Positions 4,421-63,220 of a stretch of DNA of 64,000 bases are shown here, one piece after another. Source of the DNA: Alphaproteobacteria bacterium (GTDB taxonomy: Bacteria; Pseudomonadota; Alphaproteobacteria; UBA8366); the NCBI GenBank assembly GCA_028281325.1, contig JANQKC010000010.1, forward strand, positions 1-64,000, written 5' to 3'. Positions within the stretch are counted from its first letter, which is position 1. Each line of letters opens with the position of its first letter. Under the pieces are notes generated by a model. The model made no database searches. It was not told where the DNA came from and saw only the letters and a program-made list of their open reading frames with translations. A program made the translations under genes and the position numbers.

Positions 4421-7033
4421 CTAGAACTGCTTCAGCAACCGGTCGATATAGTCGAGTTCGGGCTGCGGGCGCGTCCGTTGCCCCGCCCGGCGGCGCAACT
4501 CATCACGGATGCGCCGGGCGTCCCGTAACCGGTTCTCATCGGGAATTTCGACCTGCTCGGTATTCATGCCGCGCCCGTCATTGTCTTGTGTCCGGCCAAA
4601 CGGATCACGCTGCCGCTCGCGCGCTTCAGCGTTAGGCTCCCCTTCGCCGCGCTGGCCGCGTTGACCGAATTGACGCATGAGCTGTTCCGTGGCGGCGCGC
4701 GCGCCCTGCTGAAGCTGGTCGATCGCATTGGTTTGCGGCGGGACGGCCTGACCGGCCTGGCCCTTGCCCAGTTGGTCGCTGGACCCGCGCATCGACCGTT
4801 CGGCCCGGCCAAGCGGCCGCGGCACCGAGTCCGACATCTCGCCCAACTGGCGCATTATTTCGCCGAGCCGCTTGCGCAGCGCTTCCTGCGACTCGGATTC
4901 CTGCGATAGCGGCGCTTGCGATTGATTGGGCTGGCCGTCGGGGCGTTGCATGCCCGGCGGCGGCGAGTTCGGCGGCATCCGGAAACGCCGGTTGTTGCCC
5001 CCCTGCCGCATCTGGCCCCGCCGCTGCGCCTCGCGGAAGGTCTGGTCCAACAAGCTCTGCTGGTCGCGAATGATATCCTGCAACTCGTTCAGCATCTGCA
5101 TCGCGCGCTGTTGTTGCTGACCCGGACGCGCAAACCGCCGCGCCCGCAGGTTCTCCAGCATGTTCTGCAGTTGCGACAGCATTTGCCGCGCGGCGTCCCG
5201 TTGTCCGCTTTTCATCAATTCGCGAATCCGGTCCATCATCTTCTGCAGATCGTTCCGGCTCAGCATGTTGTCCTGATTATTCGGCTGTGCCAATTCGTTG
5301 GGCTGACGCGGCGCGTCCTTGAGCGATTCGGCAAGCGAATTGAGATATTCATTCATCGCCCGCTCAAGCTCGCGCATGAGCTTTTCGAGTTCCTCGTCGT
5401 CCGCCCCGTCGCGCAAGGCGTCCTGCAAGGCCTGTTGCGCCTCCCGCAGCGCCTGCTCACTGAGCGATAGCGTACCGTCTTCCAACCGGAGAGCGGTATC
5501 CCACAGCAGCTTCATCACGCCCGCGACATGCTCCGGCGTGTTCCTGTAACCGCCCTCCAAGCGCCGCGACGCGGACGTCAAGGCCATGAACACGACCACG
5601 TCGCCGCCATACGTCTCGTGCTCCCACGCCAGGATTTCGAGCATCGCGGCAACCCGGTTGCGGTTCTTGTCCGGTTCCACCGCAATGTCACGGCGCTGAT
5701 CGATGATCGCCCGCGCCACGGGATGCGTGAAAACGCGTTCCGGCAGCACCGCCTGCACCGGCTCGGTCTTACCGACCTGCCCCGCGGCGTCGCGCGCCAG
5801 GAGTTGAATGCTGACCGGCAGACCGGCCCAGGGGTGCGGCGTCAGGTCGTTGTAGCTGGTCGACTTGACTTCCCGCGGCATAACGCCGGGCAACGGCAGC
5901 TCAAGCTCGATCGGCGGCAGCTTATCCAGGGCCGATTGCGCACCCTCCGCGTTGGCGCGCGTGATCAAGGCGGTCACCTGTTCCACGCCGTAGTCATCGG
6001 TCGCCTCGAAATCCAAGCGCAGCGCCTTGCGCTGGCTCTCGCTGGGCTCATCCGAAAACGCGACGGTCGGGACCGTATCGTCGGTGATCGCGACGTCCCA
6101 GCCAACCAGTTCCGCACCGTCCTGCCGAACAGCGACACGGCCGGTTTCCGCCAACGCGTCCTCGATATGGTATCCGGCCTTGTCGTCTCCCTCGAACGGC
6201 TTGGCCGTTTCGCCGAAGGCAAGCTCCGGCGTGGTCACGCCGCCGGTCAAGCGAATGACCAGTTTGCTGCCCTTCGGCACCGTGATCAGCGTGCCAGGCG
6301 CCACCGGTTGCGCCGCCGCGGACTCTTCCTTTTCCGCCGTGCCGGCGAGATCGCCCGACGCCAGGAAGACCGGGGGTTTCCGGGTATAGTCCGGCGGCGT
6401 GATCCAAGCATCCAACTTGACCGCCACCGTGCCTTGACCCGCCAGCAGGTCCGGCGTCAGCGCCCGCATCACGCGTTCGCCCGCCCGATCGCCGACCGCC
6501 AGGAAGCCGGCGATCAGCGCGACGCCGAGCCCGATGCGAAAGGCGAAGGGGTCGCGTTGGATGAGTTTCGGCCGCGGCCAGCCGATGCGCAATCGCGCGA
6601 CCGCCGCCTTCATGCGCTCCTGGTGCAGACGCCACAGGTCACGCGACGCCGAATCGGAAAAGCCGGTCGCCAAGTTGTCTTCCAACGTTTCGAGAGGGCG
6701 ATGCTCCAGGTCGTTGACCTGTTCGATATGGCGCAGCGAATCCTCGCGGTCCGGAATCCGTAACGCGCGCGCGCCGCGCCAGAGGGCCGCGCCAATCGCA
6801 AGCCCGAACCCGAAGAGCAAGACGACATGCAGCCATCCCGGCAACGCCTGCGGCAAGCCGATGAGGGCGAGCACGAGAAAAAGACCGGCAAAGGCGAGGC
6901 CAGGCCAGAGCGCCGGCCACAACCGTTCCCAGAGAAGAATGATGCGGGAAAGTGAAATGCGCCAACGCGGCAAGACCGCGGCAAGGGCCGATCCGCGTCG
7001 TTTCCTAGGCGTTCGGCTCTTTGGGCGCATCAT
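4421..7033 (-). CDS. Large DUF4175 (TIGR02302-type) membrane protein
   Basis: About 870 residues. ATG 7033 overlaps the lysA stop in an ATGA arrangement and is preferred to an upstream ATG at 7072 that would run 14 codons into lysA. Three hydrophobic segments lie in the first 190 residues, two near the N-terminus and one around GVALIAGFLAVGD. A long extracytoplasmic portion follows, ending in a very Gln/Arg/Met-rich, probably coiled-coil C-terminal third (many QQ, MLNEL and RRRAG blocks). This layout matches the alphaproteobacterial DUF4175 family found after lysA. The biochemical role is not established. An envelope function is an inference from topology. Confidence 0.85.
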   Translation of the reverse strand: MMRPKSRTPRKRRGSALAAVLPRWRISLSRIILLWERLWPALWPGLAFAGLFLVLALIGLPQALPGWLHVVLLFGFGLAIGAALWRGARALRIPDREDSLRHIEQVNDLEHRPLETLEDNLATGFSDSASRDLWRLHQERMKAAVARLRIGWPRPKLIQRDPFAFRIGLGVALIAGFLAVGDRAGERVMRALTPDLLAGQGTVAVKLDAWITPPDYTRKPPVFLASGDLAGTAEKEESAAAQPVAPGTLITVPKGSKLVIRLTGGVTTPELAFGETAKPFEGDDKAGYHIEDALAETGRVAVRQDGAELVGWDVAITDDTVPTVAFSDEPSESQRKALRLDFEATDDYGVEQVTALITRANAEGAQSALDKLPPIELELPLPGVMPREVKSTSYNDLTPHPWAGLPVSIQLLARDAAGQVGKTEPVQAVLPERVFTHPVARAIIDQRRDIAVEPDKNRNRVAAMLEILAWEHETYGGDVVVFMALTSASRRLEGGYRNTPEHVAGVMKLLWDTALRLEDGTLSLSEQALREAQQALQDALRDGADDEELEKLMRELERAMNEYLNSLAESLKDAPRQPNELAQPNNQDNMLSRNDLQKMMDRIRELMKSGQRDAARQMLSQLQNMLENLRARRFARPGQQQQRAMQMLNELQDIIRDQQSLLDQTFREAQRRGQMRQGGNNRRFRMPPNSPPPGMQRPDGQPNQSQAPLSQESESQEALRKRLGEIMRQLGEMSDSVPRPLGRAERSMRGSSDQLGKGQAGQAVPPQTNAIDQLQQGARAATEQLMRQFGQRGQRGEGEPNAEARERQRDPFGRTQDNDGRGMNTEQVEIPDENRLRDARRIRDELRRRAGQRTRPQPELDYIDRLLKQF

Positions 7034-8322
7034 CCAATACTCCGGCGTCTGAGGGGATCGTCCTGCTGCCAATCCGCGAAACTGTCCAGCGCGAGCAATT
7101 CTTCGTAAGTCTGGCGCGCGCGGATCACCGAATAGTCGCTTCCGCTCACCATAATCTCCGGCACCAAGGGCCGCGAGTTATACGTCGAGGCCATAACGGC
7201 ACCGTAAGCGCCCGCGGAGGCGAAGGCCAGTAAATCTCCGGTGATCACGGGCGGCAGGGGGTAACCGCGCACGAAGGTGTCGCCGGTCTCGCAGACCGGA
7301 CCGACCACATCGGCGGGCTCGAAGGCCGCGTTGGACGGCGCCTGCGCCACCGGCAACAGGTCGTGATGCGCATCGTAGAGTGTCTGGCGGATCAAATCGT
7401 TCATCGCGGCGTCGAGCACGACGAACCGGCGGCTGTTGCCGAGCTTCACGAACAACACCCGCGAGACCAGCACACCCGCATTGCCGACAAGCATACGGCC
7501 GGGCTCGAAGGCCAGCTGGCAGCCGAGATCGCCGACCGTCTCGCGCACCATCGCCGCATACTCTTCGGGGAGGGGCGGTTCTTCGTCGCGATAGGGGATG
7601 CCGAGTCCGCCGCCGAGATCGAGCCGGGTAATCGTGTGTCCCTGATCCCGCAGCGTCCGCACCAGCTCCGCGACGCGAGTGAACGCCATGCGGAAGGGGT
7701 CCAAGTCGGTCAACTGCGAGCCGATATGGACCGCCACCGACACCGGGTTGATGCCGGGCAAGTCGGCGGCCCGCCGATAGGTCTCGACCGCGTCCGCGAT
7801 GTCGATACCGAACTTGTCTTCCTGCCGGCCGGTCGAAATCTTGTCGTGGGTCTTCGCGTCCACGTCCGGGTTGACCCGGATCGCGATATCCATCTCCGCA
7901 TTACGCGCTTTTGCGACGCCCGACAGCGCGTCGAGTTCGGGCTGCGATTCCACGTTGATCTGATGGATTCCGCGCTCCACGGCGCCGGCGAGTTCTTCCT
8001 GCGACTTGCCGACGCCGGAGAAGATGATGCCGTCCGCGGGCACCCCCGCCGCCAGCGCCCGGCGCAGTTCGCCCTCGGACACCACGTCCGCGCCCGCGCC
8101 CAAGTCCGCGAAGGTCTTGATCACCGCGAGGTTCGAGTTCGCCTTGACCGCATAGAAAATCTTCGCGTCGAGGCCGGACAACGCCTCGGCGAATACCTGG
8201 TAATGTCGGGTCAGCGTCGCCGTCGAATAGCAATAGAAAGGCGTCCCTTCCGCCTCGGCGATCTGGGTGATCAGCACGTCTTCCGCGTGCAGGGCGCCGT
8301 TGCGATACTGAAAATGGTTCAT
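7030..8322 (-). CDS. lysA: Diaminopimelate decarboxylase
   Basis: A 430-residue fold-III PLP enzyme that decarboxylates meso-diaminopimelate to L-lysine, the last step of lysine synthesis. The PLP lysine is K60 in YAVKAN. HIGSQ in the barrel and CETGDTF near the C-terminus (the cysteine/glutamate pair contributed across the dimer) are present. Length is typical. It overlaps the small lipoprotein gene upstream and the DUF4175 gene downstream, each by 4 nt (ATGA), so argH-lptM-lysA-DUF4175 is a tightly coupled operon. Confidence 0.96.
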   Translation of the reverse strand: MNHFQYRNGALHAEDVLITQIAEAEGTPFYCYSTATLTRHYQVFAEALSGLDAKIFYAVKANSNLAVIKTFADLGAGADVVSEGELRRALAAGVPADGIIFSGVGKSQEELAGAVERGIHQINVESQPELDALSGVAKARNAEMDIAIRVNPDVDAKTHDKISTGRQEDKFGIDIADAVETYRRAADLPGINPVSVAVHIGSQLTDLDPFRMAFTRVAELVRTLRDQGHTITRLDLGGGLGIPYRDEEPPLPEEYAAMVRETVGDLGCQLAFEPGRMLVGNAGVLVSRVLFVKLGNSRRFVVLDAAMNDLIRQTLYDAHHDLLPVAQAPSNAAFEPADVVGPVCETGDTFVRGYPLPPVITGDLLAFASAGAYGAVMASTYNSRPLVPEIMVSGSDYSVIRARQTYEELLALDSFADWQQDDPLRRRSIG

Positions 8323-8447
8323 CGCGGCGCCGGATAGGTTCGCGGGTATTCGCCCTTGCCCGGCGGTTCCGGCGGCCCCTTCTTACCGCAGGCGGCCGCA
8401 CCCGTGGCCAACGCCAGCACGAAAAATACCCTTAACATCAATCGCAT
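8319..8447 (-). CDS. lptM: LptM-like small lipoprotein
   Basis: A 42-codon gene. The product starts [10 protein letters not shown], has a hydrophobic signal and a lipobox ending in GAAAC (Cys20), then GKKGPPEPP, the hallmark of the LptM (formerly YifL) family. Its start overlaps the argH stop by one base (TGATG) and its stop overlaps the lysA start by four (ATGA). In enterobacteria LptM helps oxidative maturation of the LPS translocon LptD; the same role here is inferred from the motif and the family's usual place beside lysA. Confidence 0.85.
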   Translation of the reverse strand: MRLMLRVFFVLALATGAAACGKKGPPEPPGKGEYPRTYPAPR

Positions 8448-9829
8448 CACAAAAATCGCTCCCGTGCGGCCTTCGCGGCTTCACGCACGCGCTCCGGCGC
8501 GGTCCCGCCGAAGCTCATCCGGCTCTGCACCGCCGCCGCATTGCTCAATACCGAGTATATATCCTGGGTTATCCCGGATTCCACCTGTTGCATGTCCGCA
8601 AGCGGCAAATCCGCCAGACCGCAGCCCTGTTTTTCCGCCAGGGCGACGATTTGTCCCGTCACGTGATGGGCGCGACGGAAGGGCATGTCGAGCACGCGCA
8701 CCAGCCAATCCGCCAGATCGGTCGCCGTCGGGAAGCCGTCGACCAGCGCGCGTTCCATCGCATCCGGGTCGGCTTCCATGTCGCCAACCATGCCGGCCAT
8801 CGCGGCGATGGCGAGTGACAGGCTTTCCGCGGCGTCGAAGGCGGGTTCCTTGTCTTCCTGCATGTCCTTGCCGTAGGCCAGCGGCAGGCCCTTCATCACG
8901 ATCATCAGCCCGGTCATCGCGCCGACGATGCGGCCGGCCTTGGCGCGCGCCAGTTCCGCCGCGTCCGGATTGCGCTTCTGCGGCATGATCGACGAGCCGG
9001 TGGTATAGGCGTCCGACAACCGGATGAAACCGTATTGCGGCGTGCACCACAACACGATCTCCTCAGCCAGGCGCGAGAGATGGACCGCCGAGATCGACAG
9101 GGCCGCCAGGAATTCCAGCGTGAAATCGCGCGCCGACACCGCATCCATGGAATTCTCCATCGGCGCGTCGAAGCCAAGCGCTTTCGCCGTCGCATGCCGA
9201 TCGATGTCGAAGGAGGTGCCGGCCAGCGCCGCCGCCCCCAACGGGCTTTCGTTGACCCGCACGCGGCAATCCCGCAGCCGACCGCGGTCGCGCCCGACCA
9301 TCGCCACATAGGCCAGCAAATGATGGCCGAAGGTGACGGGCTGCGCCGGCTGCAGATGGGTGAAGCCCGGCATGACGGTATCCGCATGCGCCTCGGCCTG
9401 TTCGATCAGCGCCGCTTGCAGCGCCTGGAGCTGTTCGTCCAACCCGTCGATGGCATCGCGCACCCAGAGCCGGAAATCGGTCGCCACCTGATCGTTGCGG
9501 CTGCGCGCGGTGTGCAGTCGTCCGGCGGCATCGCCGATCAATTCTGCGAGACGAGCCTCGATATTCAGGTGGATATCTTCCAGCGCCGTCTTAAATTCAA
9601 ACGTACCGGCCTCGATCTCCGTCAGGATTCGGTCGAGCCCGTCCTGGATCGCGTCGCCGTCCTCGGCGCTGATCAGGCCCTGATCGGCCAGCATCCGGCA
9701 ATGCGCCTTGGACCCCGCGATGTCCTGGGCGTAGAGCCGGCGGTCGAAACCGATGGAGGCGTTGATTTGTTCCATGATGGCCGACGGGCCCGACGCATAA
9801 CGCCCACCCCACATGCTGTTGCTGCTCAT
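8447..9829 (-). CDS. argH: Argininosuccinate lyase
   Basis: A 460-residue member of the fumarase/aspartase superfamily that splits argininosuccinate into arginine and fumarate. The superfamily signature [12 protein letters not shown] is at about residues 277-288, and the N-terminus (MWGGRY) and the HTARSRND block are as expected. First gene of the argH-lptM-lysA-DUF4175 operon, so the last steps of arginine and lysine synthesis are co-expressed. Its start is only 24 nt from the divergent tlpA-type gene, so any promoter must overlap one of the coding regions. Confidence 0.96.
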
Positions 9830-45486: not shown

Positions 45487-46338
45487 ATGGTCAAGGTCAT
45501 CCCGGTCGACGCGCCGATCGGCGCGGAAATTCGCGGCGTCGATCTGTCGAAACCGTTGGACGACGACACCTTCGCGGCGATCGAAAACGCCTTCAACGAC
45601 CATGCCGTCATCTGGTTCCGGAACCAGACGATCACGCCGGCGCAGCAGGTGACCTTCAGCGAGCGGTTCGGCGAGATCGAGGTCAACGCCTTCAACAAGT
45701 TCGCGCTGCCGGACGATCCGAAGGTGCTGATCGTCTCGAACATCAAGCAGGACGGCAAGGACATCGGCTATGCCGACGCCGGCAGCCACTGGCACACGGA
45801 CATGTCCTATACCGCGACGCCGCCGCGCATGACGATGCTGTACGCCATCGAGGTGCCGGTGGAAAACGGTACGCCGCTGGGCGATACGGTTTTTGCCAGC
45901 GCCACCGCCGCCTATGACTCGCTGCCGGACGAGACCAAGGCGAAGATCGAGGGGCTCAAAGCGACGCACCGGTTCGCGGCGAAGGAGCGCGGCGTCAAGA
46001 AGCCGGTCGCGCTGACGCCGGAACAGATCGCCAAGAATCCCGACGTGGACCATCCGGTCGCCCGCACCCACCCGATCACCGGCCGCAAGGCGCTCTATGT
46101 CCGCACCGGCGAGTGCATCGGCATTCCGGGCATGCCGGACGCCGAAGCCTTGCCGCTGATCGACGAATTGTCGGACCGGATCATCCGCCCCGAGTTCCTG
46201 TACCGCCACCGATGGCGGGTCGGCGACGTGCTGCTATGGGACAACGCGGCGGTCCAGCACTGGGCGCCACGCGACTACGAATGGCCGCAGCGCCGCCGCA
46301 TGCACCGCACCACGGTCAACGGCTCGGTGCCGTTCTGA
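45487..46338 (+). CDS. TauD/TfdA-family 2-oxoglutarate-dependent dioxygenase (paralogue 1)
   Basis: 283 residues from ATG 45487. Fe(II) ligands are the HxD pair H103/D105 in SHWHTDMSYT and the distal histidine in WDNAAVQHWAPRDY; the 2-oxoglutarate arginine is in RMHRTTVNG near the C-terminus. Intact. The last 57 bp (46282-46338) recur almost unchanged at 48168-48224, beyond an inserted gene. Probably hydroxylates a small acid to start its breakdown; substrate unknown. Confidence 0.92.
   Translation: MVKVIPVDAPIGAEIRGVDLSKPLDDDTFAAIENAFNDHAVIWFRNQTITPAQQVTFSERFGEIEVNAFNKFALPDDPKVLIVSNIKQDGKDIGYADAGSHWHTDMSYTATPPRMTMLYAIEVPVENGTPLGDTVFASATAAYDSLPDETKAKIEGLKATHRFAAKERGVKKPVALTPEQIAKNPDVDHPVARTHPITGRKALYVRTGECIGIPGMPDAEALPLIDELSDRIIRPEFLYRHRWRVGDVLLWDNAAVQHWAPRDYEWPQRRRMHRTTVNGSVPF
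46282..46338. repeat. 57-bp direct repeat, left copy (3' end of tauD paralogue 1)
   Basis: TGGCCGCAGCGCCGCCGCAT... to the TGA stop of the dioxygenase gene. The right copy at 48168-48224 differs at two positions, both synonymous third-codon changes (CAG/CAA and CGC/CGT). The pair brackets the low-GC segment carrying the 491-codon gene, like the ends of an integrated cassette or a remnant of a duplicated gene. Confidence 0.85.
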
Positions 46339-55694: not shown

Positions 55695-56483
55695 ATGAGT
55701 TTCGATTTCATACCGTTTGCGGAAATCGACGGTTTCGCCGTCGCCGCGCTCCTGGTCATCTATTTCCTGGCCTTCTTCATCCGGGGGATCATCGGGTTCG
55801 GCTCGGCCATGCCCGCCGTCCTGGGCAGCGCCTGGATCCTGCCGCCGCATGACGCGGTGCTGATCGCTCTGCTGACATCGGTCTTCGCGCAGGTCCAACT
55901 GCTGCCGCAGGGGTTTCGCGACGCCAATTGGAAAATCACCAAGCCGTTGGTCGCCGGCGCGATCCTGTCGGTGGCCATCGGCGTTTGGATCTTCGCCGCG
56001 CTGGAGGCAGCCTGGCTGACCATCGCGCTGGGCCTCATCCTGAGCGCCGCCGTGATGATCGACATCGGACGGCTGACCCAGCATATGTCGAAAATCTTGC
56101 GACTCGACCGGTTCGCGGTCGCCTTTTCGCTCGCCAGCATCGCGGGATTGATGGCCGGAATCGCTGGGGCCGGATCGAACTATTTCCTTTCGGTCTATAT
56201 CCGCTGGGCCGCGCCGGAACCGCGGGTCTTCCGGGCGACCAACATCCTCGTCTCCGGCGCGATGACGCTGTGGCGCTGCTGCGTCACGTTGATCGCCGGG
56301 CTGCTGTCGATCAAACTCGCCGTCGAATCGCTGCTGGTCATGCCCGCGGTCTACGCCGGCGCCTGGGCGGGCCGCATCATGAGCGAACGGCTGTCGGCGG
56401 AGCGGTATTTCGGCCTGTTCCGCTGGCTGTTGCTGGCCGCCGCCGTGGCGCTGATCTGGAAAGGCGTGACCGCTCTCGATTGA
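55695..56483 (+). CDS. TauE/SafE-family sulfite/anion exporter
   Basis: 262 residues from ATG 55695 with AAGGA upstream. About eight helices, with the duplicated family pattern: AFFIRGIIGFGSAMPAVLGS in the first half and ASIAGLMAGIAGAGSNYFLS in the second. TauE/SafE proteins export sulfite, sulfoacetate or related organic anions. Placement next to several TauD dioxygenases, which in their best-known form release sulfite from taurine, is suggestive but not proof. Confidence 0.87.
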   Translation: MSFDFIPFAEIDGFAVAALLVIYFLAFFIRGIIGFGSAMPAVLGSAWILPPHDAVLIALLTSVFAQVQLLPQGFRDANWKITKPLVAGAILSVAIGVWIFAALEAAWLTIALGLILSAAVMIDIGRLTQHMSKILRLDRFAVAFSLASIAGLMAGIAGAGSNYFLSVYIRWAAPEPRVFRATNILVSGAMTLWRCCVTLIAGLLSIKLAVESLLVMPAVYAGAWAGRIMSERLSAERYFGLFRWLLLAAAVALIWKGVTALD

Positions 56484-56606: not shown

Positions 56607-57452
56607 ATGTATCAAATCAATCCTTTAGGAGACGCGCTCGGCGCCGAAGTGATCGGCCTGGATCCGAGCCGGGACTTGACCGAAGACGAATCCCGCATGC
56701 TCAACGAGGCGTTCTTCGACTACCTGCTGTTGTGTATCCGCTGTGATCCCATGCCGGCGGAGGATTTCGCCCGCTTCGGCCGGCAGTTCGGCAAGCCGCA
56801 GCTTCAGCTTCTGCGCAACCGCCGTCACGGCGACGTGCCGGAAGTGTCCGTCCTGGAATCCACCTATAAACGCGCGGAAGACAAGCCGGACGACATGCAG
56901 ATGATGCGCCTGTCGGGATGGCACACCGACGATTCCTATTTCGCCAAGCCCGCCAAGGCGACGATGTATCAGTCGCTCCAGATTCCCGAGTCCGGCGGTC
57001 AAACCCGCTTCTGCAACATGCGCCAAGCCTATGACGACCTGTCCGACGCAATGAAGGCGCGGCTCGACGGCCTGAAGACGGTGCACAGCTACGACACGAT
57101 GCGCGCACCGGCCCGCGCGTCGGCTCGCACCGCCGTCGAGGCCTCGGAAACGCCGGACGTGGTGCACCCGCTGATCCGAACCCATGAAGACACGGGCCGC
57201 AAGGCGATCTACCTCAATTCGAACCGGACAGACCGGATCGTCGACATGAACCGCGCCGAAAGCGATGCCCTGCTCGACGAGCTGTTCGACCATGTCACGC
57301 AGCCGAAATACGTGTACGACCACGAATGGCGGGTCGGCGACGTCCTGCTCTGGGATAACCGCTGCCTGATGCATTCGGTCAACATGGACTTCCCCGTCGG
57401 ACAAACGCGGCTGCACCAACGCCTCCTGCTGGAAGGCGCGATTCCGGTCTAG
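56607..57452 (+). CDS. TauD/TfdA-family dioxygenase (paralogue 2)
   Basis: 281 residues from ATG 56607, with AGGAGA upstream. Fe(II) ligands H106 and D108 in SGWHTDDSYF; the distal His is in LLWDNRCLMHSVNMD, and the 2-oxoglutarate Arg in TRLHQRLLLEG. Note HQR instead of HRT at this site. Intact and of normal length. First member of the 56.6-63.2 kb plus-strand run. Substrate unknown; only modest similarity to paralogue 1, so it probably acts on another compound. Confidence 0.9.
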   Translation: MYQINPLGDALGAEVIGLDPSRDLTEDESRMLNEAFFDYLLLCIRCDPMPAEDFARFGRQFGKPQLQLLRNRRHGDVPEVSVLESTYKRAEDKPDDMQMMRLSGWHTDDSYFAKPAKATMYQSLQIPESGGQTRFCNMRQAYDDLSDAMKARLDGLKTVHSYDTMRAPARASARTAVEASETPDVVHPLIRTHEDTGRKAIYLNSNRTDRIVDMNRAESDALLDELFDHVTQPKYVYDHEWRVGDVLLWDNRCLMHSVNMDFPVGQTRLHQRLLLEGAIPV

Positions 57453-57491
57453 CGACGGCCGAAACGATCCAAGCCGGGGGCGCTGCAGGGG

Positions 57492-57617
57492 CATGCATTT
57501 CCGGCACGGTTCGGGTATCGTCTCTCCCGGCGGCCGCATGACGTCCTGATCCGGGATAATCGCTGCCTCGTAACCGCCGCGACGAATGGCTGTACGGAGC
57601 CTCGGCGCATGCATTGA
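57492..57617 (+). pseudogene. Degenerate TauD C-terminal fragment
   Basis: The frame reads HAFPARFGYRLSRRPHDVLI then RDNRCLVTAATNGCTEPRRM-H and TGA. This aligns with the dioxygenase pattern F-x-Y-R...R-x-GDVL(I/L)WDNRC...PRRMHR of the intact genes here, but the Trp before DN is Arg, the distal His position is Thr, and the gene stops at the MH of RMHRT. Upstream coding sequence is lost. The whole 250-bp gap 57453-57702 is otherwise without a gene. Confidence 0.65.
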
Positions 57618-57702
57618 AGATTTGCCGACAGGCCGTGAACCGTACTGGCGGCCGACCCAAACGACGTAAACGCCCAGCCCTAAGCCCCGGGAGACACCGC
57701 AT

Positions 57703-59295
57703 ATGACCAAACGCCTCGACGCTCAATCCCTCAAAACTATGATCACGGACGGCGAGGAAATCGCCCTGCTCGATGTCCGAGAGGACGGGCAGTTCGGCGA
57801 AGGCCATCTGCTGTTCACCGTGCCGGCCCCCTACAGCGTGTTGGAAATGCGCCTGGCCGCGCTGATGACCCGCAAATCGGTGCGCACGGTGCTGGTCGAC
57901 GATGGCGACGGCGTCGCCGAGAAGGCCGCAGCGCGGATGGACGACCTGGGCTTCACGAATGTATCGATCCTCGACGGCGGCGTGCCCGCCTGGGCCGCCG
58001 CGGGCTATGAGATCTTCAAAGGGGTCAACGTTCCCTGCAAAGCCTTCGGCGAAGTGGTCGAGCACGCGGCCCATACGCCATCGATCTCGGCGGAAGAATT
58101 GAACGCCATGTTCGAGAATAACGAGGACTTGGTGGTCGTCGACGGCCGCACGCCGGAGGAATACAAGCGCATGAGCATTCCCAACGGCATCAGCGTGCCG
58201 AACGCGGAACTCGTCTACCGCATCCAGGAACTGGCGCCCTCGCCGGACACCACGGTTGTGGTCAACTGCGCCGGACGGACGCGTAGCATCATCGGGGCGC
58301 AGACCCTGATCAACGCGAAAATCCCGAACAAGGTGGTCGCGCTCCGCGCCGGCACGATGGGCTGGAACCTCGCCGGCTTCGAGTTGGACCACGGCGCGAC
58401 GCGCCGGTATCCCGAGGTGTCGGCCGACGGCATGAAGGTCGCGCAACAGCGGGCCGCCGACATGGTCGCGCGCTACAACATCAGGAAGACCAATCTCTCG
58501 ACCGTGGAAAAATGGCGCGATGACCCGAGCCGCAGCCTCTACCTGCTAGACGTGCGCGACCGGGCCGAATACGAGGCCGGGCATCTGCCCGGCGCCGTGC
58601 ATGCCCCCGGCGGGCAGCTGGTGCAGGCGACCGACGCCTGGATCGGCACCAAGGGCGCGCGCGTCGTGCTGACCGACGATACGGAAATCCGCGCGATCAC
58701 GGCGGCGCATTGGATGGTCCAGATGGCTTGGGACGTCTATGTCCTGGAAGGCGGCATCGGGGACGCCGGCACCGAAACCGGCACGCCGCCGCGCGCCGTT
58801 CTCGGCATCGACGACATCGCCGTCGACACGATGACGCCGCAGGAGCTGTCGCAGGCCCTGGACGACGGAACGGCCGTCGCGGTCGATATGGACTTGTCGG
58901 GGCATTACCGGGACCGGCGTTTGCCCGGCGCGCATTGGGGCATCCGGCCACGGCTCGACCGGCTCGCGGCCGAGCTTCCCGCCGGCAAGACCGTCGTGCT
59001 CTATTCCGAACACGAAACCCGCGCCCGGCTCGCGGTGCCCGACATGCGCGCCGCGACCGACGCGCCCGTCGTCCTTCTCGCCGGCGGGCGGGAAGCCTGG
59101 GTCGCCGCCGGGCTGCCGACGGAAGCCTCCGGCGGCACGCCGCCCGACTCCGAGCGGATCGACTTTCTGTTCTTCGTCCATGACCGTCATGACGGGAACG
59201 AACAGGCGATGCGCGACTATCTGAGTTGGGAGGAAGCCCTGCCCGCCCAGATCGAAAACGACGGCGACGCAGGCTTCACCGTGATCACACCGTAA
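57703..59295 (+). CDS. Four-domain rhodanese-like protein
   Basis: 530 residues, four tandem rhodanese domains beginning near residues 5, 125, 260 and 385 (each opens with an LDVRE/VVDGRTPEEY/LLDVRDRAEY/AVDMDLSGHY-type strand). Only domain 2 has an active-site cysteine, C189 in VVNCAGRTRS; the matching loops of domains 1, 3 and 4 are VDDGDG, LTDDTE and LYSEHE. Cytoplasmic, with no signal peptide. Expected to carry persulfide sulfur or act as a scaffold. GGGAGA precedes the ATG. It sits between two TauD genes, consistent with organosulfur metabolism. Confidence 0.88.
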   Translation: MTKRLDAQSLKTMITDGEEIALLDVREDGQFGEGHLLFTVPAPYSVLEMRLAALMTRKSVRTVLVDDGDGVAEKAAARMDDLGFTNVSILDGGVPAWAAAGYEIFKGVNVPCKAFGEVVEHAAHTPSISAEELNAMFENNEDLVVVDGRTPEEYKRMSIPNGISVPNAELVYRIQELAPSPDTTVVVNCAGRTRSIIGAQTLINAKIPNKVVALRAGTMGWNLAGFELDHGATRRYPEVSADGMKVAQQRAADMVARYNIRKTNLSTVEKWRDDPSRSLYLLDVRDRAEYEAGHLPGAVHAPGGQLVQATDAWIGTKGARVVLTDDTEIRAITAAHWMVQMAWDVYVLEGGIGDAGTETGTPPRAVLGIDDIAVDTMTPQELSQALDDGTAVAVDMDLSGHYRDRRLPGAHWGIRPRLDRLAAELPAGKTVVLYSEHETRARLAVPDMRAATDAPVVLLAGGREAWVAAGLPTEASGGTPPDSERIDFLFFVHDRHDGNEQAMRDYLSWEEALPAQIENDGDAGFTVITP

Positions 59296-59316: not shown

Positions 59317-60159
59317 ATGACCGTAACCATCGCCCCCCTTGCCGAGAATGCCGGCGCGGAAGTCACCGGCCTCGACCTGCGCGACGAGGTCGACGCGGAG
59401 ACGGCTAAGCGGCTCAACGACGCCTTCGTCGACCGGGTCGCCTTGGTGTTCCGCGACCAGACATTGACGCCGCAGGCGTTCGTGAAGGGCGCCAGCATCT
59501 TCGGCAAACCGATGAAACAACTGCTGGCGCAGTATCATCTGCCCGACTGCCCCGAGGTCGGCACCGTGTCGAACCGGGACCGCGACACCAAAGGCGACGG
59601 CAAGATCCTGATCCGGGGCACCACCTGGCACACCGACCATTCGAACAAGGAGGTGCCGCCAAAGGCGACATCGCTCTACGCGGTCGAATTACCGGACAGC
59701 GGCGGCGACACGGAGTTCACCAATACCTGCGCCGCCTATGACGCGCTGCCGGACGACACCAAGAAGCGGATCGACGGCCTACAGGCGGTGCATGCCTATC
59801 TCAGCAGCCGCACGCCCCGCAAGCTGCCGAAACGCACCAAGGAAGAGGAAGCGGCCAGCCCGGATATGATCCAACCGCTGGTCCGCACCCATCCCGATTC
59901 CGGCCGCAAGGCGCTATACTTGAATCCGGTGCGGATCGAGGAATTCGTCGGCGTCGAGAAGGAGGAGGGCTTCGCGCTGCTCAATGCGCTGATGGCGCAC
60001 GCCACCGAGGACCGCTTCATCTACCGGCACAAGTGGCGGCGCGGCGACATGGTGATCTGGGACAACCGCTGCTCGATGCATCAGGCGCATACGGACTATG
60101 ACATGAACCAACTTCGCCTGCTGCACCGGCTGATGCTGGAAGGCACCAAGCCGGTCTAG
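59317..60159 (+). CDS. TauD/TfdA-family dioxygenase (paralogue 3)
   Basis: 280 residues from ATG 59317, 21 nt after the rhodanese stop. Fe(II) ligands H105/D107 in TTWHTDHSN, distal His in VIWDNRCSMHQAHTDYDM, 2-oxoglutarate Arg in LHRLMLEGTK. Complete. LADSGG-type middle (VELPDSGGDTEFTNTCAAYD) is conserved. Clearly cotranscribed with the rhodanese gene. Substrate unknown. Confidence 0.92.
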   Translation: MTVTIAPLAENAGAEVTGLDLRDEVDAETAKRLNDAFVDRVALVFRDQTLTPQAFVKGASIFGKPMKQLLAQYHLPDCPEVGTVSNRDRDTKGDGKILIRGTTWHTDHSNKEVPPKATSLYAVELPDSGGDTEFTNTCAAYDALPDDTKKRIDGLQAVHAYLSSRTPRKLPKRTKEEEAASPDMIQPLVRTHPDSGRKALYLNPVRIEEFVGVEKEEGFALLNALMAHATEDRFIYRHKWRRGDMVIWDNRCSMHQAHTDYDMNQLRLLHRLMLEGTKPV

Positions 60160-60190: not shown

Positions 60191-61078
60191 GTGGCCACGA
60201 TCCGCATCATGTTCAGCCGGTTCTCGGCCTTCTACAGCCCGCTGATCTGCACCTTCGCCGGCGGTTTCCTGGGCGAGGAAGGCCTGGACGCCGAATACGG
60301 CGTGGCGACGCCGGACCGGTCGGCCGGAGAAGCCGTGGAGAACGGGTCCCATCACGTCACGCAATACGCGGTCTCCGCCAGCTGGGCGGCGATGGAGGCG
60401 GGACGGTCTTCGTCGCTCGTGCATTTCGCGCAGATCAACCTGATGGACGGATTCTTCATCGCGGGCAAGGACCCGGATCCGGGCTTCACCTGGGACAAGC
60501 TGGCGGGCAAGCGCGTGCTGGTCGACCACGGCGCACAACCCTTGGCGATGTTCAAATACGGCCTGCACCGCATGGACGTCGATTTCGGCAGCATCGAGGC
60601 GATCGACATGGGCGGCGACGACGCCATGGAAGCCGCCTTCCGCGCCCGCCGGGCCGACTACGTCCATCTGCAGGGTCCGACGCCGCAACAGATCGAAAAA
60701 GACGGGGCCGGGCATATCGTCGCTTCGGTCGGCGAAGCGGTCGGCCCGGTCGCCTTCAGCAGCCTCGCCGCCACGCGCGACTGGCTGGCGACCGACATGG
60801 CGCAGGCCTTCATGCGCGCCTACCGCAAGGCGCGCGCCTTCGTCATCGAGACGCCCGCCGCCGACGTCGCCCGGATCGAACAGGATTTCTTCCCCGATAC
60901 CGACACGGACGTTCTGGCCAAGACCATCGCCTTCTACCAGGGTCTCGGCAATTGGCATCCCTCGGTCGAGATCGGCCGCGACTCTTACGAAACCGCGCTC
61001 GATGTGTTCGAACATAGCGGCCTGATCACCCGGCGGCATGCCTATGAAGACGTGTGCGCCGCGCCGCCCGATGCGTAG
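60191..61078 (+). CDS. NMT1/ABC-substrate-binding-like protein without signal peptide
   Basis: 295 residues from GTG 60191, with a strong GGAGGAG. The fold pattern is that of NitT/TauT or THI5-NMT1 periplasmic binding proteins: ATIRIMFSRFSAFYSPLICT, FLGEEGLDAEYGVA, LAGKRVLVDHGAQPLAMFKY and the C-terminal lobe AFMRAYRKARAFVIETPAAD. There is no signal peptide or lipobox, so it should stay in the cytoplasm. It may be an enzyme or sensor that reuses this fold. The ABC permease and ATPase that would accompany a true binding protein are absent. Confidence 0.75.
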   Translation: MATIRIMFSRFSAFYSPLICTFAGGFLGEEGLDAEYGVATPDRSAGEAVENGSHHVTQYAVSASWAAMEAGRSSSLVHFAQINLMDGFFIAGKDPDPGFTWDKLAGKRVLVDHGAQPLAMFKYGLHRMDVDFGSIEAIDMGGDDAMEAAFRARRADYVHLQGPTPQQIEKDGAGHIVASVGEAVGPVAFSSLAATRDWLATDMAQAFMRAYRKARAFVIETPAADVARIEQDFFPDTDTDVLAKTIAFYQGLGNWHPSVEIGRDSYETALDVFEHSGLITRRHAYEDVCAAPPDA

Positions 61079-61087
61079 TCGCGCCGC

Positions 61088-62311
61088 GTGAACCCGCCGC
61101 CCACCGATACGCACCGTGCCGAAAATCCGTGGCGAACCCGGCTGGCGGTCCTGACCCTTGCCCATGTCGTCGGCACGTTGCACATCACCACATTGACCGT
61201 GATGGCGCCGGTCATCAAAGAGGACCTTACGCTTTCCTTTACGCAGGTCGGCCTGCTGGTCACCGCCTATAGCGCCGGACAGGTCACAGGATCGATCCCG
61301 GCGGGCACGTTGAGCGACCGTGTCGGCGTCGGCTGGGCGCTGGTCGTCGCGCATCTTTTCATGATCGCGGGCGCCGCGACGCTGACCCAGGCCGACGGCG
61401 CGGCGATGGCCATGGCGGCGATGCTGTTGACCGGCTGGGGGTATGCGATCGTCAACCCGGCAACCGCGAAGGGCGTGTTCGATTCCTTCCCGCCGGAGCG
61501 GCGCGCGACGGCGATGGGGATCAAGCAGACCGGGGTGCCGATCGGCGGGGTCACGGCGGCGGTTCTCGGCTCATTCGCGACGGCCGACGGCTGGCCCCTG
61601 ATCACCGCCGGCGTCGCCATCGCCACCGTCGCCGGCGGCCTGTGCTGTTTCGCCATCGTCGAACGCCCGAAACCCCGAACCGGCGCGGCCGCGGCGGCGC
61701 GGTCCGGCGCGCTGCGCGAAGTGATGCAGGACATGAATTTCGCCCGCTTCGTGTTGGCCAATTTCCTCTACAATTTCGGCCAGGCGAGCTTCTTCGCCTA
61801 CCTAACGCTGTTCATCCGGCAAGGCGCGCAAGCCAGCCAGGAAGTTGCCGGCCTATGCTACGGCGTCGCGCAAATCTTCAGCGTCGCCGCGCGGCTCGGC
61901 TGGGGCGCGGTCAGCGATTTCCTGTTCAAGGGACGGCGCAAATCGCTCACCCTGGGTTTGGGGGTCGTCGCCGCCGTCTGCCTCGCCGCGATGACGCAGG
62001 TCGCGCCGGGATGGGGCTTGACGCTCGGCGTTGGACTGTCCGCCGCGCTCGGCGTTACCATCGCATCCTATGCACCGCTGATGCAGACCATGGCGACCGA
62101 GGCGGTGCCGACGCACCTGACCGGATCGGCGGTCGGCTACAACATGGTCGGCACGTCGATCGGCAGCATCGTCGGTCCGCCGCTCTTCGGCGCGGCCATC
62201 GACGTCACCGGCACTTTCGAGAGCGGCTGGCTGCTCTGTTCGATCCTCGTTGCGGCCGGCGTGACCCTGCTGGCCTTCGGGTTTCGCGAACGGGGCGCGG
62301 CAAAGGAATAG
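61088..62311 (+). CDS. MFS transporter
   Basis: 407 residues from GTG 61088, 9 nt after the previous stop. Twelve helices. TLTVMAPVIKEDLTLSFTQV, GTLSDRVGVGWALVVAHLF (motif A) and PPERRATAMGIKQTGVPIGG (sugar/anion-type motif) are recognisable. Likely brings in or exports the substrate of the neighbouring dioxygenases and dehydrogenase. The ribosome-binding site is weak, so translation may be coupled to the upstream gene. Confidence 0.88.
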   Translation: MNPPPTDTHRAENPWRTRLAVLTLAHVVGTLHITTLTVMAPVIKEDLTLSFTQVGLLVTAYSAGQVTGSIPAGTLSDRVGVGWALVVAHLFMIAGAATLTQADGAAMAMAAMLLTGWGYAIVNPATAKGVFDSFPPERRATAMGIKQTGVPIGGVTAAVLGSFATADGWPLITAGVAIATVAGGLCCFAIVERPKPRTGAAAAARSGALREVMQDMNFARFVLANFLYNFGQASFFAYLTLFIRQGAQASQEVAGLCYGVAQIFSVAARLGWGAVSDFLFKGRRKSLTLGLGVVAAVCLAAMTQVAPGWGLTLGVGLSAALGVTIASYAPLMQTMATEAVPTHLTGSAVGYNMVGTSIGSIVGPPLFGAAIDVTGTFESGWLLCSILVAAGVTLLAFGFRERGAAKE

Positions 62312-62329: not shown

Positions 62330-63220
62330 ATGACAATCGGTTTCATCGGACTGGGCAACATGGGCAACCCCATGTGCGGCCGGTTACTCGACGCGGGACA
62401 CCAGCTCGTCGTGCACGATATCGACGAAGACGCGGTCAAGCCGATGGCGGACCGGCAGGCGCGGGTGATGGGATCGCCGAAGGACGTGGCCGACGCCGCC
62501 GACGTAGTCTTCGCCTCGCTGCCGACCAACGCGTCGCACCGGCAGGTCGCGCTCGGCGCCGACGGCATCCATGCGGGGGCAAAGGCGAAGATCTTCGTCA
62601 ATCTCTGCACGGTCGGCGGCGCTTACATCCGAGAGATCGCCGACACGCTTGCGACATCGAACATCGCCACCATCGACTGCCCGATCAGCGGCGGTCCGCC
62701 GGGCGCGGCGGCGGGCACCCTGTCGGTCATCGTATCGGGCCCCACAGACGCCTTCGAACAGGTGAAAGACATGCTCGACCGATTGGGCACGATCACCTAT
62801 GCGGGCGAGGAGGTCGGCATGGCGCAAAGCCTGAAACTGGCCAACAACATCCTGTCGGCCACGGCGCTGGCCGCGACATCCGAAGCGCTGGTGATGGGCG
62901 TCAAGGCGGGGTTGGACCCGGAGGTCATGCTGCAGGCGATCAATCTCGGCAGCGGCCGCAACAGCGCGACCCTGGACAAGATTCCCCGCGACGTGCTGAC
63001 CCACAACTTCGCCTTCGGGGCGGCGATGGACATCCTGCTGAAAGACATCGACATGGCGGTCGCCGAAGGCGAGGGCCTGGGCGTGCCGATGCGCGTATGC
63101 CAGTCGACGCGGCAGTTCTTCCGGTTGGTGCAGGCGCAGCTCGGCGGCGACGCCGACATCACCCGCGTCGCCGAATGGGTCGCCGGGGCCGCGAAAACGG
63201 AGATTCCGAAGACGCGCTGA
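62330..63220 (+). CDS. 3-hydroxyisobutyrate dehydrogenase-like NAD(P)-dependent oxidoreductase
   Basis: 296 residues. The NAD(P) motif GFIGLGNMGNPM lies at residues 4-15, the substrate motif is DCPISGGPPGAAAGTLSVIV, and the catalytic lysine is in SLKLANNILSATALA. Beta-hydroxyacid dehydrogenase family (hydroxyisobutyrate, tartronate semialdehyde, 6-phosphogluconate-like). GGGAGGAG precedes the ATG. Last gene of the plus-strand run and probably oxidises a hydroxy acid formed in the same pathway. Confidence 0.9.
   Translation: MTIGFIGLGNMGNPMCGRLLDAGHQLVVHDIDEDAVKPMADRQARVMGSPKDVADAADVVFASLPTNASHRQVALGADGIHAGAKAKIFVNLCTVGGAYIREIADTLATSNIATIDCPISGGPPGAAAGTLSVIVSGPTDAFEQVKDMLDRLGTITYAGEEVGMAQSLKLANNILSATALAATSEALVMGVKAGLDPEVMLQAINLGSGRNSATLDKIPRDVLTHNFAFGAAMDILLKDIDMAVAEGEGLGVPMRVCQSTRQFFRLVQAQLGGDADITRVAEWVAGAAKTEIPKTR

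Follow-up and report, generated by a model that had tools for sequence, protein, structure and literature searches.

Enzymes of the TauD family release sulfite from sulfonates, and the family also accepts sulfur-free substrates. Rhodanese chemistry joins sulfite, persulfide, and thiosulfate, and in the persulfide dioxygenase-rhodanese fusions an iron dioxygenase giving sulfite lies beside a rhodanese that links these three species. Pairs and fusions of mercaptosuccinate or cysteine dioxygenases with rhodaneses, found in Variovorax, Advenella, Azospirillum, and Paraburkholderia, place a member of the rhodanese family treated here next to an oxygenase expected to yield sulfite. According to the sections consulted of one study, sulfinosuccinate, the product of mercaptosuccinate dioxygenase, decays to sulfite, and the Variovorax rhodanese adjoining this enzyme is discussed for sulfite detoxification or cofactor synthesis, its domain number being unstated there (PMC5373536). 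Here we describe an alphaproteobacterial gene block in which such a rhodanese is surrounded by TauD-family genes. We put the chance at about even that the block is an operon for the use of organic sulfur compounds, in which TauD enzymes take the place that thiol dioxygenases have elsewhere as partners of the four-domain rhodanese.

The window, i.e., the whole stretch of 64,000 nucleotides that was analyzed, encodes a protein of 530 aa at 57703..59295 (+ strand, ATG start codon), referred to here as Rho4 (P0001). The initial annotation had read it from the sequence as four tandem rhodanese domains, and the Pfam profile Rhodanese (PF00581) matched the whole protein at 1.6e-48 in four stretches (57721-58002, 58087-58368, 58504-58758, and 58834-59106), each above the curated cut-off in the genome scan. 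Rhodanese was the sole domain type identified by Pfam, and a metallo-beta-lactamase-fold dioxygenase domain was absent from the Pfam results for Rho4; the persulfide dioxygenase-rhodanese fusions thus resemble the proposed block in their working but differ in the fold of the oxygenase, Rho4 consisting of rhodanese domains only. PDB chain 1yt8, named "thiosulfate sulfurtransferase," matched residues 14-528 of Rho4 with an E value of 2.3e-135, and near full-length homology, four domains, and a cysteine in the domain-2 loop place Rho4 in the 1yt8-type four-domain rhodanese family. We take 1yt8 to be PA2603 of Pseudomonas aeruginosa. The term PA2603 is absent from the main text of PMC9765439. A predicted structure of Rho4, calculated from four sequences, had a mean pLDDT of 62.9.

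Rho4 contains two cysteines, C112 and C189. The second (codon 58267..58269, + strand) is the only one located in an active-site loop (NCAGRTRSII in domain 2), since the corresponding loops of domains 1, 3, and 4 lack cysteine in the alignment, in agreement with the initial annotation. The domain-2 cysteine is present in 78/78 aligned Rho4 relatives, an alignment that omits three duplicate loci, the loci L077, L078, and L089, and all ORFs no longer than 450 aa. One active cysteine among four domains is therefore the usual appearance of the family, and the idea that it is a peculiarity of the window's protein was rejected. The diverged rows L118 to L121 keep the cysteine in a different loop (CMSATRG or CMSGTRG), and a few rows (e.g., L053 and L090) carry an extra cysteine within the domain-4 loop or close to it, as does 1yt8. 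The domain-2 loop of 1yt8, NCAGRTRSIIG, is identical to that of Rho4, and both proteins adjoin a nonheme iron oxygenase; they differ in the domain-4 loop, which has a cysteine in 1yt8 but not in Rho4, and in the partner, which is a thiol dioxygenase for 1yt8 and TauD-family enzymes for Rho4. Two arginines are present in the Rho4 loop. In the consulted portions of two reports on other rhodaneses, a loop arginine of RDL2 is critical for sulfane sulfur transfer (PMC8533005), and PspE converts thiosulfate to glutathione persulfide (PMC10215317).

The best NCBIfam matches of Rho4, all below the cut-off, were the rhodanese domains of MoeB/MoeZ. Such matches would suit a protein that provides persulfide sulfur for a cofactor or for thiolation (e.g., for the molybdenum cofactor of a sulfite-oxidizing enzyme) and takes no part in the TauD reaction. 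Cofactor synthesis is likewise suggested for the rhodanese next to mercaptosuccinate dioxygenase, in the sections consulted of PMC5373536, and the genome that contains the window encodes three Oxidored_molyb proteins, with substrates that are only putative. None of these three proteins lies on the window's contig (C14), however, and a scan of ten genes around Rho4 revealed no recognizable cofactor gene; we regard this role as very unlikely.

Rho4 is part of a closely spaced series of genes on the + strand, in the order TauE/SafE, TauD, Rho4, TauD, NMT1/THI5-like, major facilitator superfamily (MFS), and hydroxyisobutyrate-type dehydrogenase. The four intergenic gaps 3' of Rho4 measure 9 to 31 bases, and strand and spacing suggest that the block is cotranscribed. 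The first gene (55695..56483, + strand) encodes the TauE/SafE-family membrane protein that the initial annotation had placed nearby; it lies upstream of Rho4 and matches PF01925 at 9.5e-22 with 78.2 bits against a cut-off of 32.6, which assigns it to the family. Its start is probably at 55695 instead of 55569, with a translation that begins MSFDFI and aligns with that of the sister genome (L039). Downstream of the second TauD gene, an NMT1/THI5-like protein of 295 aa (60191..61078, + strand; PF09084, 5.1e-8) is kept in the block of relatives and is 62% identical to its counterpart in L040/L041 (see below). It shows no obvious signal peptide by eye and has no PDB sequence match at 0.01; its predicted structure, from four sequences, had a mean pLDDT of 46.7. 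Equivalence with the binding proteins found by Rho4 in Azospirillum, Paraburkholderia, or Shinella was rejected (best E value, 0.06). An MFS transporter (61088..62311, + strand; PF07690, 9.7e-52), also kept in the block, is followed by a 3-hydroxyisobutyrate dehydrogenase-like NAD(P) dehydrogenase (62330..63220, + strand; PF03446, 9.2e-38, and PF14833, 2.4e-35), which is the last codirectional gene and is present in the window and in L039. The block yielded no transporter specific to sulfonates, which counts against the operon reading.

A profile scan of the window located TauD matches at 45502-46314, 56616-57422, and 59329-60135, the last two of which confirm that TauD genes stand on both sides of the rhodanese. 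The upstream copy (56607..57452, + strand) matches PF02668 at 2.9e-63, and its start is probably at 56607 instead of 56505, where the translation begins MYQINP and aligns with that of the sister genome; the downstream copy occupies 59317..60159 (+ strand; PF02668, 8.2e-66). Scores, the HxD...H iron-binding residues, and the 2-oxoglutarate arginine assign both to the TauD/TfdA superfamily of Fe/2-oxoglutarate dioxygenases. Both were rejected as taurine dioxygenases proper, with 161.1 and 181.4 bits against the equivalog cut-off of 313 bits (NF007104). The window TauDs thus share the enzyme family and iron-binding pattern of E. coli TauD (tauABCD); unlike that system, they fall below the equivalog cut-off, no tauABC transporter is recognized in the block, and several paralogs surround a rhodanese. 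The downstream copy is equally close to (R)-phenoxypropionate dioxygenase (1.2e-44) and to TauD chains (7.8e-41 or better).

The 250-bp gap directly 5' of Rho4 (57453-57702) contains what is left of the 3' part of another, decayed TauD gene (57483..57645, + strand). A tblastn search of the gap with a TauD of the sister genome gave 57.0 bits (E value, 1.5e-15), compared with 24.3 bits for the best of 200 shuffles of the gap. The second iron-binding histidine of the remnant is gone and stops are present, and its counterpart is an open gene in L039 and copy 2 of the array in L040. The view that the gap is a regulatory region only was consequently rejected, since a TauD remnant lies inside it; it may still hold an internal promoter.

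To survey the neighborhood, Rho4 matches were collected at several taxonomic depths. Matches occurred in 38/39 near genomes at an E value of 0.001 (own genome included; many of the weaker ones are single domains), in 35/43 genomes of the order at 1e-110, and, at 1e-60, in at least 51/289 genomes drawn from the class and at least 22/299 drawn from the phylum, with up to five and up to four candidates scored per genome, respectively. Neighborhoods were fetched for part of the matching genomes, and their ORFs were called, clustered, and labeled. The largest form of the block was found in two Rhodospirillaceae metagenome-assembled genomes, L040 (SAT126) and L041 (RS386), where the codirectional order is an enolase-superfamily enzyme, four TauE, two TauD, Rho4, seven TauD, NMT1-like, and MFS. 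In another genus, three genomes (L050-L052) combine Rho4 with three TauD, NMT1-like, and MFS; the TauE gene is open in L051 and broken in L050, and none was found in the block neighborhood of L052. The initial annotation had proposed a survey of this kind, and Rho4 is indeed accompanied by same-strand TauD genes across three genera of the family to which the window belongs (L039; L040/L041; L050-L052). In family f125 of the same class, TauD matches start 14 and 39 bases 3' of Rho4 on the same strand (L063 and L064), and Rho4 and TauD occur together on 2/3 of the Azospirillum plasmids examined. The closest Rho4 orthologs outside the genus (58 to 66% identity), in family f2, have no adjoining TauD; at four loci (L049, L059, L060, and L061), they directly follow a gene that looks by eye like a pyruvate kinase, a setting without evident connection to sulfur. 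Two orthologs in genus g3 (59% identity) have no TauD within 3 kb.

In L040, L041, and L050-L052, genes resembling nitrile hydratase, asparaginase, and lyase (named by eye) lie upstream of the block on the opposite strand, and Rieske and glyoxalase-fold proteins are also divergent from the TauD-Rho4 block in some of these genomes. The nitrile hydratase-like genes, 4.5 to 9.6 kb upstream of Rho4, could point to cyanide or nitrile handling, in which Rho4 would detoxify cyanide to thiocyanate. They are divergent from the block, however, and a search of 16 kb of the window revealed none; we consider such a role very improbable.

Phylogenetic and residue analyses were used to characterize the members of the block. 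In a Rho4 tree of 78 rows built by a quick method, the window's protein falls in a 13-row clade (starred support, 98) composed of all seven TauD clusters, from three genera, two g3 rows without adjoining TauD, and four f2 rows. A wider 19-row clade (starred support, 99) has L063/L064 at its base and includes four rows with no labeled neighbor nearby. In a TauD tree of 56 rows, likewise built by a quick method, 23/24 cluster TauDs form one set together with one background TauD (starred support, 99); L040_20232, the one not in this set, is on the opposite strand and not part of the block. As background, 26 of the own genome's 62 other TauDs were sampled, and nearer ones may exist among the rest; the tree omits the L041 rows, which are near copies, and a short row from L107. 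The block TauDs thus form one nearly private subfamily, distinct from the majority of the own-genome TauDs that were sampled. Orthologs could be traced between genera, pairing the upstream TauD of the window with copy 1 of the L040 array (starred support, 99) and copy 2 of L039 with copy 2 of L040 (starred support, 100); the downstream TauD is nearest to a group of L040 copy 8 and L050 copy 3 (support of 93, not starred). Because of these orthologs, several TauD copies probably predate the split of the genera. The HxD...H residues and the 2-oxoglutarate arginine are kept in 67/67 aligned TauDs, and a second arginine is replaced by lysine in three rows and by a gap in one. In total, 20/20 gene pairs gave dN/dS values of 0 to 0.2, indicating purifying selection; 13 of these compare L040 with L041, where few changes were seen, and seven compare the window with L039, including Rho4 (0.083), the upstream TauD (0.108), the downstream TauD (0.065), and TauE (0.126).

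TauD-family genes are so frequent in these genomes that adjacency to any gene is weak evidence, and for this reason TauD adjacency alone was rejected as proof of a link. The own genome carries 64 in 5.1 Mb, several of them as tandem pairs, and ten relatives carry 29 to 103 each (three of these counts are "at least" values), with up to about 100 in genomes of 3.4 to 3.7 Mb. In a draw from the class, TauD was found in 84/142 genomes, and most genomes had few copies; only three of the 84, one of them the own genome, exceeded 40 candidates at first look. Elsewhere in the own genome, a TauD gene lies about 650 bases behind the last matched domain of a sulfite/nitrite reductase-family protein, on the same strand (C14:113279-116026). 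On contig C35, the stretch L146 encodes a protein 33% identical to a mercaptosuccinate dioxygenase-like query (5296-5853, - strand), near a tandem TauD pair (6872-7828 and 7782-8633, - strand); Rho4 is absent from this stretch.

With such numbers, the neighborhood could have arisen by hitchhiking in TauD-full genomes, having no functional meaning, and Rho4 would work alone; the further tandem TauD pairs of the own genome and the TauD-free Rho4 orthologs in g3 and f2 fit this explanation and count against a link. A link is supported by the gene order shared among three genera, by a TauD subfamily that is nearly private to the block and has orthologs traceable between genera, and by the recurrence of the arrangement in f125 and Azospirillum; these observations, together with the purifying selection, leave hitchhiking quite unlikely. 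Thus, where the initial annotation had hinted at organosulfur metabolism, the link to organosulfur genes is strengthened by the conserved neighborhood and weakened by the f2 and g3 orthologs without TauD.

To place the block within the wider Rho4 family, 111 Rho4 loci were labeled. The window's order contributed 41 of these, the draws from the class and the phylum 40 and 20, respectively, and plasmids the other 10, which were chosen for their annotation among the matches listed (40 of 97 records). A thiol dioxygenase of the cysteine/mercaptosuccinate type lies within 3 kb of Rho4 in 41/111 loci, on the same strand in 41/41; TauD does so in 14/111 (11 on the same strand). TauE was found near Rho4 in 8/111 loci, and a binding-protein or NMT1-like gene, a category that lumps unlike proteins, in 15/111. 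Any of four nonheme oxygenase types is near Rho4 in 57/111 loci, and none was detected within 3 kb in the other 54 at the search sensitivity used. Labeled neighbors were absent at 8/20 phylum loci (L167, L168, and L172-L177), a count that speaks against the operon reading; of these, L173-L175 and L177 are shorter relatives that match about residues 12-366 of the query alone. At ten loci, a dioxygenase and Rho4 are joined in one ORF of 722 to 850 aa; in L067, a PDB sequence search with the N-terminal part of the fused ORF gave mercaptosuccinate dioxygenase 8vni (1.9e-32). Unlike these pairs and fusions, the window's Rho4 has no thiol dioxygenase detected within 3 kb. The second Rho4 copies of the own and sister genomes (L042 and L044) adjoin a small cupin instead of TauD; the cupin of the own genome resembles 8vni weakly (E value, 0.004, PDB sequence search), and neither this small cupin nor the fused protein had a thiol dioxygenase match in Pfam.

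The annotated plasmids illustrate the range of partners. In Azospirillum ramasamyi, the gene order is cysteine dioxygenase, Rho4, binding protein, TauD; in Azospirillum TSH58, a LysR gene stands first and is followed by Rho4, binding protein, TauD; and in Azospirillum B510, the order is cysteine dioxygenase, Rho4, binding protein, and the stretch contains no TauD. Caballeronia NK8 carries cysteine dioxygenase, cystathionine beta-lyase, two rhodaneses, and TauE on the opposite strand, and Shinella carries an LLM oxidoreductase, binding protein, Rho4, SDR, and TauE. In Variovorax, a single 2253-base gene annotated as a sulfurtransferase contains a dioxygenase match, and in two Paraburkholderia a thiol dioxygenase lies directly 5' of Rho4; no dioxygenase is annotated near Rho4 in Agrobacterium or Ensifer. 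A further oxygenase type is seen in L111 and L118, where Rho4 relatives lie near isopenicillin-N-synthase-like 2-oxoglutarate oxygenases and NMT1-like proteins.

The range of neighbors also bears on whether the block TauDs act on sulfur compounds at all. They may instead use sulfur-free compounds (e.g., aryloxy compounds or amino acids), with Rho4 serving general sulfane-sulfur or redox homeostasis next to iron oxygenases of any substrate. The downstream TauD, with its equal closeness to TauD chains and (R)-phenoxypropionate dioxygenase, agrees with this, as do the Rho4 genes behind pyruvate kinase and near isopenicillin-N-synthase-like oxygenases. The TauE/SafE genes in the window's block and in the L040/L041 block argue against it, as does the partnership of the wider family with thiol dioxygenase, and we judge sulfur-free substrates unlikely. 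The initial annotation had tied its reading to a recurrence of these families together in other genomes, and the association of Rho4 with TauD and thiol dioxygenases is conserved. The organosulfur reading is plausible and better supported than from the window's sequence alone.

If the block does serve organic sulfur use, the TauD paralogs, each probably with its own substrate, would hydroxylate the carbon adjoining an oxidized sulfur group and release sulfite, as may be expected from the TauD family. C189 of Rho4 would hold a sulfane sulfur, and the three domains without cysteine would be structural or binding domains. Rho4 would most likely meet the released sulfite, forming thiosulfate from its cysteine persulfide and sulfite or catalyzing the reverse, and would thereby keep a reactive product in transferable form, while TauE would carry a sulfur oxyanion across the membrane. 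The substrates, the release of sulfite, the direction of sulfur transfer, and the role of TauE in this scheme, like cotranscription, are all conjectural. Because sulfinates can decay to sulfite, sulfite would be the point in common with the thiol dioxygenase version. That Rho4 is kept beside different oxygenase types suggests that these share a product, for which sulfite is the simplest candidate. In Pseudomonas protegens, deletion of the Rho4 ortholog did not significantly affect 3-mercaptopropionate, according to the part of the study consulted (PMC12947264), a result that counts against a strong role for Rho4.

The largest blocks allow a further, tentative reading, to which we give well under an even chance: a many-substrate desulfonation array, in which a single sulfurtransferase would be the hub for as many as nine tandem dioxygenases of differing function and as many as four transporters of sulfur oxyanions. 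Such an array would have expanded through duplications within the locus, in alphaproteobacterial genomes that have 29 to over 100 TauDs each. Every dioxygenase would attack its own dissolved organosulfur substrate, and the sulfite set free would be gathered by the common rhodanese in the form of thiosulfate or persulfide. Isolate names suggest that the related bacteria carrying the block are marine. Among titles and abstract openings listed by PMC for the four-domain protein, TauD with rhodanese, and TauD expansion, a scope mostly outside subscription journals, the cluster is undescribed; we regard it as a new type of gene block built around a known protein family. Rho4 is widespread and has a solved relative, and its retention beside thiol dioxygenases, TauD, and perhaps isopenicillin-N-synthase-like enzymes gives the family a testable role. 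The array form, if true, would provide candidate enzymes for the breakdown of organosulfur compounds in the sea.
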